A stretch of 64,000 bases of DNA, from assembly GCF_024464185.1 (NCBI RefSeq), contig NZ_JANHAU010000001.1, positions 124,001 to 188,000 of the forward strand. The letters run 5' to 3'. The position numbers were made by a program, and so were the translations under genes. Of this stretch, positions 13,227-40,110 are shown one piece after another (position 1 is the first letter of the stretch; each line of letters begins with the position of its first letter). A model generated the notes under the pieces. The model had not been told where the DNA came from. It made no database searches and saw only the letters and a program-made list of their open reading frames with translations. This DNA comes from Haloarchaeobius salinus (lineage in GTDB: Archaea; Halobacteriota; Halobacteria; Halobacteriales; Natrialbaceae).

Positions 13227-14012
13227 TCAGTTCCCGTCGAGTTTCTCGAACGTCTTCTCCGCCCAGCGTACCGCGTACGGTGCGCCGCGGTCGCGGTAGG
13301 CATCGGCGTCCAGCGCGCCGAACGGTGCCGGGAGTTCGAGCGCGTGCTTGATCGCGCTGCAGGCGAGTTCGGTGGCGTCGGCGAAGTCGGTCTCGCCGAG
13401 CGCGACCTCGCGCGAGAGGCCGTCGAGTCGGCCCTCGAGCCGGTTCCCGGCGTCCTGCCACGCGTCGCCGAGCGCGGGTTCCGTCTCGAGCCAGCCGGCG
13501 AAGACGTCCCGGGTGTGCAGGCCGAGCCAGCCGTCGTACAGCGCGGCGGCTATCTGGTAGGTGGCGTTCGGGCCGAGCGGGACGACGGCGGCGAGCTCGC
13601 GGTAGTGCTCCTCGAAGAAGCCGAGAAAGTGCTCGGGGACGTCGAGGCCGGTCTCGACCAGTGCCTCCGCGACGAGGAAGTCGACGAACTCCGTCGGCGA
13701 GCCCTGCACGCGCGCTTTGACGATGACGACCGGTGGGTCGGTCTGGTGTGTCCACGCGACGCTGCCGTCGCCCGGCGCGCCGATGGTGAACGTGGAGCCG
13801 GCGAGCCGGTCGAGCACCGCCGGGGCGTCCCCGGGGAGCCACTCCCGCGGGTACGTCTTCGGGTCGAGTGAGTCCACGAGCAGCCCGAGGTCCTCCGCCT
13901 GCGCCGGTGGGAGCGTCTCGAAATCGTTCGCGGCGTCGAGGACGAGCGCGTCCGGAGCGTGTCGCTCGCGGACGGCGGCGACCTGCGGAGAAAGCTCCCG
14001 TTCCGTGAACAT
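13227..14012 (-). CDS. Conserved haloarchaeal protein, unknown function
   Basis: A 261-residue soluble, acidic protein; I believe it belongs to a haloarchaea-restricted DUF family (possibly DUF7089) but cannot confirm this. It opens ELSPQVAAVRERHAPDALVLDAA and is mostly alpha-helical. Noticeable features are the strand TFTIGAPGDGSVAWTHQTDPP and the helical stretch ATYQIAAALYDGWLGLHTR. No catalytic motif or membrane segment is seen. Its ATG shares one base with the TGA stop of the 29-residue membrane-peptide gene upstream (TGATG), so the two are translationally coupled. Confidence 0.72.
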   Translation of the reverse strand: MFTERELSPQVAAVRERHAPDALVLDAANDFETLPPAQAEDLGLLVDSLDPKTYPREWLPGDAPAVLDRLAGSTFTIGAPGDGSVAWTHQTDPPVVIVKARVQGSPTEFVDFLVAEALVETGLDVPEHFLGFFEEHYRELAAVVPLGPNATYQIAAALYDGWLGLHTRDVFAGWLETEPALGDAWQDAGNRLEGRLDGLSREVALGETDFADATELACSAIKHALELPAPFGALDADAYRDRGAPYAVRWAEKTFEKLDGN

Positions 14013-14101
14013 CAGATACCGAGGCTGACGGCGACCAGCGCGACCGACAGTGCTCCGGCGATTCCGACCGTCGCGAGTACGATCTTCGTGGCTTCGCTCA
14101 T
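14012..14101 (-). CDS. 29-residue single-span membrane peptide
   Basis: A very short gene: MSEATK followed by one hydrophobic span (IVLATVGIAGALSVALVAV) and a SLGI tail. Three observations support it: a TATA-like box about 26 nt before the ATG, an ATG that matches the expected leaderless start, and a stop that shares a base with the start of the next gene. The product would be a one-pass membrane microprotein. Its partner is probably the protein encoded at 13227-14012. No family is recognised. Confidence 0.6.
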   Translation of the reverse strand: MSEATKIVLATVGIAGALSVALVAVSLGI

Positions 14102-14154: not shown

Positions 14155-14177
14155 GCATCCCCTGTTTCAATTGGACG
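14155..14177 (-). repeat. ORB-like element, outer origin flank (minus orientation)
   Basis: Read on the minus strand it contains CCAATTGAAACAGGGGA, matching the haloarchaeal ORB core CCAGTTGAAACGAAGGGG with one base missing between GAAAC and the G-run. It pairs with the oppositely oriented element at 14221. Confidence 0.6.
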
Positions 14178-14220
14178 CCAATCATCTCCCTCAGAGATGT
14201 ATATGTCCTACTGTGAGGGT

Positions 14221-14243
14221 TTCGGAGTGGAAACAGAGGGGTG
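14221..14243 (+). repeat. ORB element, outer origin flank (plus orientation)
   Basis: It contains GTGGAAACAGAGGGGTG, a close match to the ORB half-site and G-run found in the main origin. It lies 66 bp from the minus-oriented copy at 14155, with both G-runs pointing outward, between the membrane-peptide gene and the end of oapC. Confidence 0.72.
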
Positions 14244-14340: not shown

Positions 14341-15351
14341 TCAGTCGTCGCCGCGCCAGGAGTCCGGCACGTCGATGACGTACCGACCGTCCTCGCGCAG
14401 TGAGATGATGTACTCCTCGCGGTCGTACAGCTCCATCAGGTTCAGCTCGTACTGCCCGGGGTTGAGGATCTTGATGCTCTCGAACTGCTGGTTGAGCTCC
14501 TCGCGCAGCTCGTCGAGGTCCGGCCGGTCCTCGATCTGCGTGTCGGCCGGGTCCGCGACCTCGTGGCGGTCGTCTGCGGTATCGGGCGACGTCCCGGGGA
14601 CGTCGGGTGCACCCGGGCGCTCCGTCGCACTCCCCCGACCGCCGGCTGCCGCCTCCGGTTCGGGTGCGCTCCCGGAGTCGCTCGCGGGAGCGTCGGTCGT
14701 CCCCGGTTCGTCCGCCGGCGGTGTGGCGGTCCCCTCCGGAAGTTCGTCCGGCGAGACGACGTCCGACCGGGCGCTCGCCTGCGCGTTGTCCTCGTCGCCC
14801 GCGGTCCGGGCCTGGATGGTCCCATCGTCGCTGGCCGGGTCGGTGTGCGTCGTGGACGCCGCCTCCGACTGGGCGTCGGCGGTCGACGAGGCGGTGGTCG
14901 AGGCATCGCCGGTGGCGTCGGCAGTCGAAGCGTCCGCAGTGGCGTCGACTGTCGCCGACGTGTCGCCGCTCGCCCCGGCTTCGTCGTCGCCTCGGGCGGC
15001 CGCCTTCTCGGCGGGCGTGTCGTAGTCCTCGGTGGCGGACTTCGGCCACTCCCCCGACGGCCGGTCACTGGTCGGCCGGTCACCGGACGGCCGCTCGCGG
15101 TCCGACGGCCGGTCGGCGTCGTCGCTGCCGCCGCCGACCCAGTCGCGGACCGTGGTGGCCGCCTTGCTCACCGCGCCTGCCGAGGAGCTGCGGCTCGGGG
15201 GCTCACCCGGCGAGTTCGCCTCGACGGACTCGTCGACGGCGTCGGCCGGGATGAACTGGAACTTGTTGCCGCCACAGTCCGGACAGCCCGACAGCATCTC
15301 CTTCGAGCCGTCCTCGAACGTCCGCCCACAGTCGGTACACTGGTGGGGCAT
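14341..15351 (-). CDS. oapC: Origin-associated protein OapC, zinc-ribbon
   Basis: A 336-residue protein. The N-terminus holds a zinc ribbon: CTDCGRTF at about 5-12 and CPDCGGNKFQF at about 23-33. A long Ser/Thr/Asp/Ala-rich linker of some 200 residues follows, with tandem SDRPSGDRPTSDR-like repeats. A conserved C-terminal domain of about 70 residues carries IKILNPGQYELNLMELYDREEYIISL. The zinc ribbon plus this C-terminal domain match OapC, whose gene sits in oapABC beside oriC and orc1/cdc6 in Halobacterium and other haloarchaea. Its ATG shares one base with the oapB stop (TAATG). Its role in origin function is established only by association and gene order. Confidence 0.85.
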   Translation of the reverse strand: MPHQCTDCGRTFEDGSKEMLSGCPDCGGNKFQFIPADAVDESVEANSPGEPPSRSSSAGAVSKAATTVRDWVGGGSDDADRPSDRERPSGDRPTSDRPSGEWPKSATEDYDTPAEKAAARGDDEAGASGDTSATVDATADASTADATGDASTTASSTADAQSEAASTTHTDPASDDGTIQARTAGDEDNAQASARSDVVSPDELPEGTATPPADEPGTTDAPASDSGSAPEPEAAAGGRGSATERPGAPDVPGTSPDTADDRHEVADPADTQIEDRPDLDELREELNQQFESIKILNPGQYELNLMELYDREEYIISLREDGRYVIDVPDSWRGDD

Positions 15352-15737
15352 TATTTCCGGGAGACGAGGGCGCTGATGAGCGTTTCGTCCTTGTGCAGCG
15401 TCTCGATCTGGTTCGCCGGACCGATGACGGTGAGCTTCGCCGTCTCCTCTTTCCCCATGATGCGGTCGAGGATGGAGGCGTCGTTGGTCTGGGAGCGTGG
15501 ATAGGTCTCGATCTCGATGCCGTTGAACTCGTCCGGGCTGATCTCCGTCATCGTCACCTCGATGAGCTTCGACTCCTCGTCGGGCGAGAGGCCCTCCTCG
15601 AGGATGACGATGTTCCCGTCACGAACCCCGTCGAGGATGATGCGGATCTTCTCCATGCTCGCGAGGTTCTCCATGCGCTGCCCACTGATGAGGTCGATCT
15701 GGACCCCGCCGTCGTCTGAGGTTTTTGCTTCCGGCAT
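15351..15737 (-). CDS. oapB: Origin-associated protein OapB (DUF2073)
   Basis: A 128-residue DUF2073 protein with VQIDLISGQRMENLASMEKIR and VRDGNIVILEEGLSPDEE, the two best-conserved family segments. It is soluble and of mixed alpha/beta type. ATG 15737 is used here; a GTG at 15746 that overlaps the oapA stop (GTGA) is an equally possible start adding three residues. It is the middle gene of the oapA-oapB-oapC operon. It is thought to act with the GTPase OapA at the origin, but its biochemical role is unknown. Confidence 0.88.
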   Translation of the reverse strand: MPEAKTSDDGGVQIDLISGQRMENLASMEKIRIILDGVRDGNIVILEEGLSPDEESKLIEVTMTEISPDEFNGIEIETYPRSQTNDASILDRIMGKEETAKLTVIGPANQIETLHKDETLISALVSRK

Positions 15738-15742
15738 CTGTC

Positions 15743-16387
15743 TCACCCAAAGTACTCCGCTATCTTGTCGTACACTTCGTCCATGTTCTCGCCCTCGAGC
15801 GCCGAGAGCGGCACCGTCTCGTGCTGGGGGAACGCGTCCTCGATGCGCTTGATGCTCGAATCGTCGAGGTCGATCTTGTTCGCGAAGATGAGCACGGGGA
15901 GATCACGCGACTCGATGATGCCGATGAGCATCGTGTTCACCTGCGTGAAGGGGTCCGTCGTGCTGTCGAGCACGTAGATGACGCCGTCGACGTCCTCGCG
16001 AAGCCAGTGCATGGCCTCGGCGACACCCTCCGTCGCCTCGCGAGACCGGCGGACGGCCTCGTCCTGGTCGAACTCCTCGTAGTCGAGGAACTCCTCGTAG
16101 TCGACCTTCGTCGTCACACCGGGCGTGTCGACGATGTCGATGTTGACCGAGCTGCCGTTGCGCTCGATCTCGACGTTCTCCTTCCGGCGAGCCCGTCGTG
16201 TCTCGTGTGGCACGTGACTTTCGGGGCCGACGGCGTCGCCGGTCCAGTCACGGGCGATCCGGTTCGCCAGTGTGGTCTTCCCCGCGTTGGGTGGCCCGTA
16301 GATGCCGATCCGCTTCTGTTCTTCCTCCGTGAACAAGCTCTCTCGTACCTGCTGCAGACTGCTTTTGAGTCCTGAAATGAGTCCCAT
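15743..16387 (-). CDS. oapA: Origin-associated GTPase OapA (Era/Obg-like)
   Basis: A 214-residue small GTPase, first gene of oapABC. G1 is GIYGPPNAGKTT, G3 is DIVDTPGV and G4 is FANKIDLDD; the C-terminal PLSALEGENMDEVYDKI contains the G5-like SAL. An N-terminal amphipathic stretch MGLISGLKSSLQQVRESLF precedes the G domain. The start at 16387 is chosen because GGAGG lies about 10 nt upstream on the coding strand; the longer frame to 16462 adds a Cys/Arg-rich stretch unlike haloarchaeal protein. The 5' side opens directly into the replication origin, so transcription leads away from it. Confidence 0.88.
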   Translation of the reverse strand: MGLISGLKSSLQQVRESLFTEEEQKRIGIYGPPNAGKTTLANRIARDWTGDAVGPESHVPHETRRARRKENVEIERNGSSVNIDIVDTPGVTTKVDYEEFLDYEEFDQDEAVRRSREATEGVAEAMHWLREDVDGVIYVLDSTTDPFTQVNTMLIGIIESRDLPVLIFANKIDLDDSSIKRIEDAFPQHETVPLSALEGENMDEVYDKIAEYFG

Positions 16388-21075: not shown

Positions 21076-21084
21076 ACCCTTTTG
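21076..21084 (+). promoter_or_regulatory. TATA-like box of the PolD small-subunit gene
   Basis: ACCCTTTTG is centred about 29 nt before the GTG at 21109, which supports a leaderless transcript and a GTG start. Confidence 0.5.
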
Positions 21085-21108
21085 CCCTGTCGAGTGCTGT
21101 GGAGTGAT

Positions 21109-22953
21109 GTGCCACAGGAGGCGACCGCACGCATCGTCGGCGAACTCGCGAGGCGTGGCTACAACGCCGAGCGGGAGGCGGTGACGCTCATCGCCGGTGC
21201 CGAGGACCCGGACGCGACGCTCGCGGCGGTCGTCGACGCGACCGCGGCTGACGCGCTGAAGGTGACCGCCGCCGACGTGCGTGCGGTGCAGGACGAGACC
21301 GCTCCGCGCGGGGCGTCGGCTCTCCGGAACGGGGACGACGAGCAACCTCCCTCGTCGGCCGACGCTCGCTCGAGGACGGACGGAGTCGAATCGCAGGAGG
21401 GTGCGCCGAACTCACCCGACCAACACCCCTCTGTTTCCGGTGGAAACCGGGATTCCCAGACGACTACGACTGGTCCGGATTCCGGCGGCGAATCTCCAGC
21501 TGAAACGGAGGGGTCTGACTCGGCGGGGGGCGACGCCGTCGGCGACTCTCCGGCCGATACCGGACCCTCCGACCCTGCCGACGGCGACACCGGGACCGTT
21601 GCTGGAACAGGCACCGGAACCGATGCCGGGGGTGAGCCCGCTGCCGGAAGTGAGCCCGCTACCGGAACCGACACCGGAGCTGACGCTGGCACCGACACCG
21701 GGACGGTGCAGCGCTCCCGTGACCGGGCTGCGGACCGGTCGACCGACCAGCGCTCGGTGAGCGTCGAGAACGACATGACCGGCCGGAGCACGGGGACCGG
21801 CGAGTACAGCGACTTCGTCTCGGTGTTCCGCGACCGCTACGACAAGCTCGCCTCGAAGCTCCGGGGTCGCGTGAACCACCGGCCGACCGACGCCATCGAG
21901 TCGATGGCCGGGGGGAGCGAGGTCGCGCTGGTCGGCATGGTCAACGACATCCGCTCGACCGCCTCGGGGCACTGGCTCGTCGAGCTGGAGGACACGAAGG
22001 GGACGTTCCCCTGTCTGGTGATGAAGGACCGGAACATCGCCGAGCTCGTCGACGAGCTGCTGTACGACGAGGTCATCGCCATCGAGGGGACGCTCGCCGA
22101 CGACGCGGGGATCGTCTTCGTCGACTCGATGCACTTCCCCGACGTGCCCCGGACCCACCAGCCGAGCTACGCGGACCGCCACGTGCAGGCGGCGCTCATC
22201 TCCGACGTCCACGTCGGCAGCCAGGAGTTCATGCACGACGAGTGGGACGCGTTCGCGGACTGGCTCTACACCGAGGAGGCCGAGCACATCGAGTACCTGC
22301 TCATCGCGGGCGACATGGTCGAGGGCGTCGGCGTCTACCCCAACCAGGACGAGGAGCTCGACGTGGTCGACATCTACGACCAGTACGAGACGTTCAACGA
22401 GAAGCTCAAGCAGATTCCGGGCGACATCGACGTGACCATGATCCCGGGCAACCACGACGCGGTCCGGCTCGCCGAGCCACAGCCGGGCTTCGACGAGGAG
22501 CTCCGGAACATCATGACGGCGCACGACCCTCGCATCGTGAGCAACCCCTCGACGGTGACCGTCGAGGGGGTCTCGGTGCTGATGTACCACGGCGTCTCGC
22601 TCGACGAGGTCATCGCGGAGACGCCCGAGCACACCGCGAGCTACGACGAGCCGCACAAGGCGATGTACCAGCTGCTGAAGAAGCGCCACGTCGCCCCGCA
22701 GTACGGCGGCCACACCCGGCTCGCACCCGAGGAGAAGGACTACCTCGTCATCGAGGACGTGCCGGACATCTTCCACACGGGCCACGTCCACAAGCTCGGC
22801 TTCGGGAAGTACCACAACGTACTCGCCATCAACTCGGGCTGCTGGCAGCGCCAGACCGACTTCCAGAAGTCCGTGAACATCCAGCCCGACGCGGGCTACG
22901 CGCCCGTCGTCGACCTCGACACGCTCGACGTGACGGTCAGAAAGTTCTCCTGA
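21109..22953 (+). CDS. polB: DNA polymerase D small subunit DP1 (3'-5' exonuclease)
   Basis: A 614-residue DP1 subunit of archaeal replicative polymerase D; here polB means the PolD small subunit, not family-B polymerase. Residues 1-70 form the N-terminal helical domain (IVGELARRGYNAEREAV). A linker from about 75 to 225 is rich in Gly, Thr, Ser and Pro. An OB-fold region follows around 255-335. The calcineurin-like exonuclease domain has all metal motifs: SDVH (Asp366, His368), GDM (Asp402), GNHD (448-450) and GHVH (559-561). The GTG at 21109 is preferred for its TATA spacing. Two ORB elements lie within the linker codons at 21424 and 21493. Confidence 0.92.
   Translation: MPQEATARIVGELARRGYNAEREAVTLIAGAEDPDATLAAVVDATAADALKVTAADVRAVQDETAPRGASALRNGDDEQPPSSADARSRTDGVESQEGAPNSPDQHPSVSGGNRDSQTTTTGPDSGGESPAETEGSDSAGGDAVGDSPADTGPSDPADGDTGTVAGTGTGTDAGGEPAAGSEPATGTDTGADAGTDTGTVQRSRDRAADRSTDQRSVSVENDMTGRSTGTGEYSDFVSVFRDRYDKLASKLRGRVNHRPTDAIESMAGGSEVALVGMVNDIRSTASGHWLVELEDTKGTFPCLVMKDRNIAELVDELLYDEVIAIEGTLADDAGIVFVDSMHFPDVPRTHQPSYADRHVQAALISDVHVGSQEFMHDEWDAFADWLYTEEAEHIEYLLIAGDMVEGVGVYPNQDEELDVVDIYDQYETFNEKLKQIPGDIDVTMIPGNHDAVRLAEPQPGFDEELRNIMTAHDPRIVSNPSTVTVEGVSVLMYHGVSLDEVIAETPEHTASYDEPHKAMYQLLKKRHVAPQYGGHTRLAPEEKDYLVIEDVPDIFHTGHVHKLGFGKYHNVLAINSGCWQRQTDFQKSVNIQPDAGYAPVVDLDTLDVTVRKFS
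21424..21446 (-). repeat. ORB element inside the DP1 linker (minus orientation)
   Basis: Read on the minus strand it contains CCACCGGAAACAGAGGGGTG. It falls in codons for about residues 106-113 of the low-complexity DP1 linker. Confidence 0.72.
21493..21515 (+). repeat. ORB element inside the DP1 linker (plus orientation)
   Basis: Contains CTCCAGCTGAAACGGAGGGG, differing from the reference ORB at about five of 23 positions. It pairs with the minus-oriented copy 69 bp away, both G-runs pointing outward. Confidence 0.72.
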
Positions 22954-40087: not shown

Positions 40088-40110
40088 AACCCCTTCGTTT
40101 CGGCTCCGAA
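40088..40110 (-). repeat. ORB-like element with perfect core
   Basis: Minus strand contains CCGAAACGAAGGGGTT: the GAAACGAAGGGGT half is identical to the best oriC box, while the left half is poor. Confidence 0.55.

Follow-up and report, generated by a model that had tools for sequence, protein, structure and literature searches.

Conserved inverted ORB pairs behind oapC and within the DP1 gene as candidate accessory Orc1 sites near a haloarchaeal oriC1

An inverted pair of ORB-derived sites is located past the stop codon of oapC, between this gene and the gene for a 29-aa microprotein, in the 64-kb stretch of Haloarchaeobius salinus DNA that was analysed as a whole (the window). Conservation extends to both half-sites of the pair and to its geometry, and the oapC pair is one of a few such sites, the others being a second pair within the DP1 gene and single sites at orc1 and oapA. 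Judged from the sequence, the oapC pair and its spacer (together, the module) may serve as an accessory site at which Orc1 is sequestered or regulated, in the manner of oriC2D or datA, a reading that we favour while giving it slightly less than an even chance. The genes of the region are arranged in the order DUF7089 gene, microprotein gene, oapC, oapB, oapA, origin, orc1 and DP1. The features referred to below are as follows (window positions, strand, description):

14012–14101, minus: 29-aa microprotein gene, near PF24004 (Archaeal microprotein), just under the cut-off
14155–14177, minus: left arm of the accessory ORB pair, CGTCCAATTGAAACAGGGGATGC; family consensus GTTCCAGTCGAAACGGTGGTGTG
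14178–14220, no strand: AT-rich spacer of 43 bp, fixed in length and free in sequence
14221–14243, plus: right arm of the accessory ORB pair, TTCGGAGTGGAAACAGAGGGGTG; family consensus TTTGCAGTCGAAACAGAGGGGTG; 11.0 bits
14341–15351, minus: oapC (PF09845)
15351–15746, minus: oapB (PF09846)
15743–16387, minus: oapA/arvA, small GTPase (Pfam; PMC10927574)
16510–16532, plus: ORB-like site upstream of oapA, CTTCCAGTCGAAATGCGGGGGTG; 14.2 bits
17095–17117, minus: main oriC1 ORB, left, with extended G-string; 42.4 bits
17321–17343, plus: main oriC1 ORB, right, with extended G-string; 37.9 bits
18156–18178, plus: ORB whose end lies about 10 bp ahead of the orc1 start codon; 29.3 bits
18189–19715, plus: orc1 (Cdc6 lid, winged helix)
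21082–22953, plus: DP1, small subunit of DNA polymerase D (PF04042)
21424–21446, minus: left arm of the DP1 pair, inside the coding sequence; 30.0 bits; conserved order-wide
21493–21515, plus: right arm of the DP1 pair, inside the coding sequence; 28.0 bits; conserved order-wide

The two arms of the oapC pair face outward, with a distance of 66 bp from start to start and of 62 bp between the GAAAC cores. Between the pair and orc1, about 4 kb away, lie the oap operon and the main origin. A preliminary description of this DNA had given the coordinates of the arms, their opposite orientation, the 66-bp distance and their place between the microprotein gene and oapC exactly. It had also described G-runs pointing outward, which is correct for the orientation of the arms and too generous for the G-run of the left arm, which is weak. 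The core TTCCANNNGAAAC is matched by the module consensus, and the arms in the window carry GTCCA (left) and TCGGA (right) where the core has TTCCA. A G-string (GGGG three bases after GAAAC) is present in the right arm; at this place, the left arm reads GAAACAGGGG in the window and GGTGG in the consensus. Since the left arm has GAAAC-A-GGGG in place of the GAAAC-NNN-GGGG of the main ORBs, its G-run lies two bases out of the main-ORB register. The spacer was rightly called AT-rich, with an AT content of 56% compared to 31% for the whole window.

The ORB matrix used for scoring was derived solely from relatives (79 main-origin ORBs) and included no site of the window. The comparison with shuffled sequence that the preliminary description had proposed came out in favour of the right arm, whose 11.0 bits compare to a mean of -0.5 and a maximum of 13.2 for the top score of the shuffled 64-kb window (50 shuffles), and not of the left arm alone, which was a poor ORB when taken by itself and fell outside the 30 best matrix sites of the window. 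Scored in the conserved register, the left arm ranked in the top 0.04% of positions. As a pair, the arms exceeded all 200 dinucleotide shuffles of the intergenic region in which they lie (p 0.005, the lowest value that this test can give), and their score was reached by none of 613 control windows.

Rather than being absent from close relatives, the outward pair was found at exactly the same spacing in all five congeners. Past oapC, pair spacings of 30–159 bp were tested, and a clear peak was obtained at 66 bp in the first set of loci (z 6.3). Because this spacing had been found on the first set's own data, 60 further, held-out genomes of the family were tested, in which 66 bp led again (z 8.1) and 33 of the 60 scored above 18. 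A score of 18 was reached by the oapC-downstream windows of 21 out of 46 family genomes, as against no control window (0/613) above 15; the genomes are related, so that these counts represent non-independent events. A second spacing peak at 61 bp was discarded as mostly a register shadow of the 66-bp peak. Genomes with both arms positive belong to at least 12 of the family's 29 genera and, beyond the family, to Halostella and Haloplanus. Several species of Haloferax keep the right arm only, about 25–50 bp past oapC, and neither arm was seen past oapC in the Haloarcula loci; any role of the module is therefore not universal. In about half of the family genomes, a recognisable module is missing, and the arms are degenerate in many, so that their affinity may be low. 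The main argument for the module is its fixed spacing set against an unconserved spacer sequence, whose column information is near 0.

ORBs on both sides of the oap operon, which the preliminary description had pointed out, are indeed present, in the form of the main ORBs and the ORB-like site upstream of oapA; this bracketing is not what matters most, because an equivalent and better conserved pair sits in DP1, on the other side of the origin. The main origin is also nearby as claimed, with the nearest main ORB 2.85 kb away instead of 2 kb. The outward DP1 pair was detected in 120 of 126 haloarchaeal loci, some species being represented by more than one named locus. Its cores lie 53 bp apart in 106 of the 126 and otherwise 65 bp (the value in the window's genus), 50 or 71 bp, all in frame. 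The codons of the pair are under constraint at the DNA level. Among GTT, ACT, GGA, CCA and GAA, G or C at the third position was found in none or almost none of the cases (expected, 0.70–0.89), and at some positions the amino acid changes yet the motif bases stay. In a pattern scan of the 3.85-Mb genome, exact oriC1-type ORBs (TCCANNNGAAACNNNGGGGT) were found five times, all within 4.4 kb, namely as the two main ORBs, the one just before orc1 and the outward DP1 pair. Among the matches listed, the ORB-pair pattern occupied essentially one place per genome in at least 78 of 125 family genomes; this place was DP1 where checked, and one genome also showed the oapC module among the matches listed. 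A reversed control pattern gave no match. The extended G-string was found in 1 of 61 DP1 ORBs. The DP1 pair is arguably the stronger finding of the two.

If the pairs depended on linkage to the origin, they would be expected to disappear when unlinked. This dependence was rejected: the DP1 pair is kept in several genomes in which DP1 lies 8–58 kb from orc1 (194 kb in G117), and the oapC pair is kept in the unlinked genomes G110 (about 188 kb), G113 (on another contig) and G120 (about 135 kb), the right arm being weak in the last of these. Linkage is thus not required for the oapC pair, though it was lost in G111, G112, G114, G117 and G020, and its retention where oapC is 135–190 kb from orc1 implies that the module needs no adjoining origin. 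Altogether, the rearrangements fit an action in trans or a local action better than a shaping of the origin in cis.

In the favoured reading as an accessory Orc1 site, two Orc1 monomers would bind the arms and form one defined complex. Lacking the extended G-string, the accessory sites would not fire; the bound Orc1 would be held or inactivated, and initiation at oriC1 would thereby be limited or timed. The defined complex might perhaps also change the state of Orc1, as datA does for DnaA, and what the fixed spacing points to is an active complex more than a passive sink. Persistence of the pairs away from the origin is what a trans-acting sink can do. Two observations count against a sink: simple titration needs no fixed spacing, nor does titration account for the conserved AT-rich spacer. 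In E. coli, datA and DARS are initiator-binding sites off the origin that have a defined spacing, act in trans and control initiator availability. The module is similar to them in the location of its putative initiator-binding sites away from the origin and in their defined spacing, its activity being proposed, and differs in the initiator, which is DnaA in E. coli and, by prediction, Orc1 here.

In Haloarcula hispanica, the oriC2D region downstream of cdc6E contains 11 ORBs, has no origin activity and negatively controls oriC2, which it restrains probably by titrating Cdc6E; two ORBs gave an intermediate effect (PMC3936714). Like the module, oriC2D consists of ORBs outside the origin proper that are thought to titrate an initiator. 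Its ORBs are densely clustered in a single intergenic region of oriC2/cdc6E, whereas the module is a single inverted pair of rigid spacing, located behind oapC at oriC1/orc1 and complemented by the DP1 pair. By sequence, the oapC pair thus provides initiator sites outside the origin; in place of a dense ORB cluster, just this pair and the DP1 pair, 7 kb off in the window, were found. OapA corresponds to the vesicle GTPase ArvA, and the oap/arv operon is the operon that the module lies behind (Pfam; PMC10927574); the passages of PMC10927574 consulted on this operon make no mention of an ORB pair behind oapC. Neither the oapC nor the DP1 pair was found reported in the open-access articles searched, as distinct from paywalled work and from supplements such as the 2012 compilation of ORB predictions.

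A wider proposal, which is doubtful though worth stating, is a haloarchaeal initiator-control system at oriC1, in which second-class Orc1 sites without the extended G-string, set in inverted pairs of fixed geometry (oapC and DP1), would switch off or store the initiator in trans, as an archaeal counterpart of datA/DARS. One of these pairs lies behind the vesicle operon, and the other is written into the DP1 coding sequence. Archaeal safeguards against Orc1 re-firing an origin are poorly understood, and a conserved pair with fixed spacing and no extended G-string separates predicted initiator binding from firing. Synonymous changes alone suffice to destroy the DP1 pair, and initiator control at the oldest haloarchaeal origin is thereby open to direct tests in tractable species.

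Among the other explanations, a local transcriptional element is unlikely but has specific points in its favour. Orc1 bound past oapC would block or tune read-through between the oap operon and the microprotein and DUF7089 genes, or would regulate their promoter. The right arm lies 97 bp past the oapC stop codon in the window and often 4–40 bp past it in relatives of many genera, and in genus g24 the module was lost in four genomes with a broken oapC–DUF7089 junction and kept in two congeners with an intact one. Moreover, the ORB just before orc1 suggests autoregulation of orc1 and an action of Orc1 on transcription as well. On the other hand, the module lies anywhere between about 50 and 400 bp from the microprotein promoter, depending on the genome; in several genomes (f7) whose microprotein gene is some 2 kb off, the module or its right arm stays near oapC; and the twin pair sits inside a coding sequence. 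The variable distance and the retention with oapC past intervening genes also weaken the module as a candidate promoter element of the microprotein gene.

It is rather improbable that the module represents a dormant or auxiliary mini-origin, at which the inverted ORBs would load two facing MCM hexamers across the AT-rich 43-bp spacer. Outward inverted ORBs with the same core motif around an AT-rich spacer are the layout of archaeal origins, including haloarchaeal oriC1 (PMC3936714), and the spacer of the module is richer in AT than the remaining intergenic sequence (0.51 compared to 0.375; 25 of 27 genomes; Wilcoxon p 2e-7). However, the extended halophile G-string is absent from the accessory arms (0–1 of 23 modules, compared to 76 of 80 origin-proximal ORBs), and its mutation at oriC1 of Haloarcula hispanica abolishes plasmid replication (PMC3936714); since this element is essential there, the module is not read as an origin. 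Unlike oriC1, the module also does not adjoin orc1 and is kept when unlinked, and its spacer is much shorter than the approximately 203 bp of the main origin in the window. No conserved AT-rich sequence element was seen, and the spacer of the DP1 twin is not AT-rich (0.36). The initial impression of the main origin's architecture in miniature is not supported, given the arms without an extended G-string and the retention of the module 135–190 kb from orc1.

An architectural function in cis, with Orc1 on the oapC and DP1 pairs contacting the main ORBs and thereby looping or handcuffing the origin region, would suit the rigid geometry and the position of the pairs, which flank the origin within 4.4 kb in most genomes; it is improbable in view of the retention of both pairs at tens to hundreds of kilobases from orc1. 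Only a slight chance is given to a site for a different DNA-binding protein, either an Orc paralogue or an unrelated factor, with a motif that resembles an ORB. The module consensus departs from the main ORBs by TTGCA (right arm) and GGTGGTG (left arm), and many Orc paralogue matches were obtained in the genome, so that another paralogue could bind, Orc1 being one of many; nevertheless, a matrix derived from oriC1 ORBs alone still detects the module, and the cores of the DP1 twin match the oriC1 type perfectly. Because the arms are inverted repeats near the oapC stop codon, an RNA hairpin at the 3' end of this gene was considered; it is very improbable and was rejected, because the arms do not co-vary (identity at free positions of 0.30 within genomes compared to 0.34 between genomes), which argues against RNA pairing as the constraint on them, and no Rfam family matched.

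Several further ORBs were recorded. Sites on the plus strand upstream of oapA, similar to the one in the window, occur in congeners and in other families (L139, L140, L142, L148 and L150), and the ORB preceding orc1 has counterparts in many relatives. A single plus-strand ORB inside the orc1 coding sequence is present in many genera of the family (L069, 6305; L096, 6652; L104, 6206; and others) and was not seen in the window's genus. In the stretches examined from genus g24 (L343–L354), no main ORB pair with an extended G-string was present near orc1; such a pair is located about 1.35 Mb from orc1 in G117, and oriC1 seems to have been dismantled in this genus. Finally, the window contains an isolated ORB-like site on the minus strand at 40088–40110 (12.8 bits), about 23 kb from the origin.
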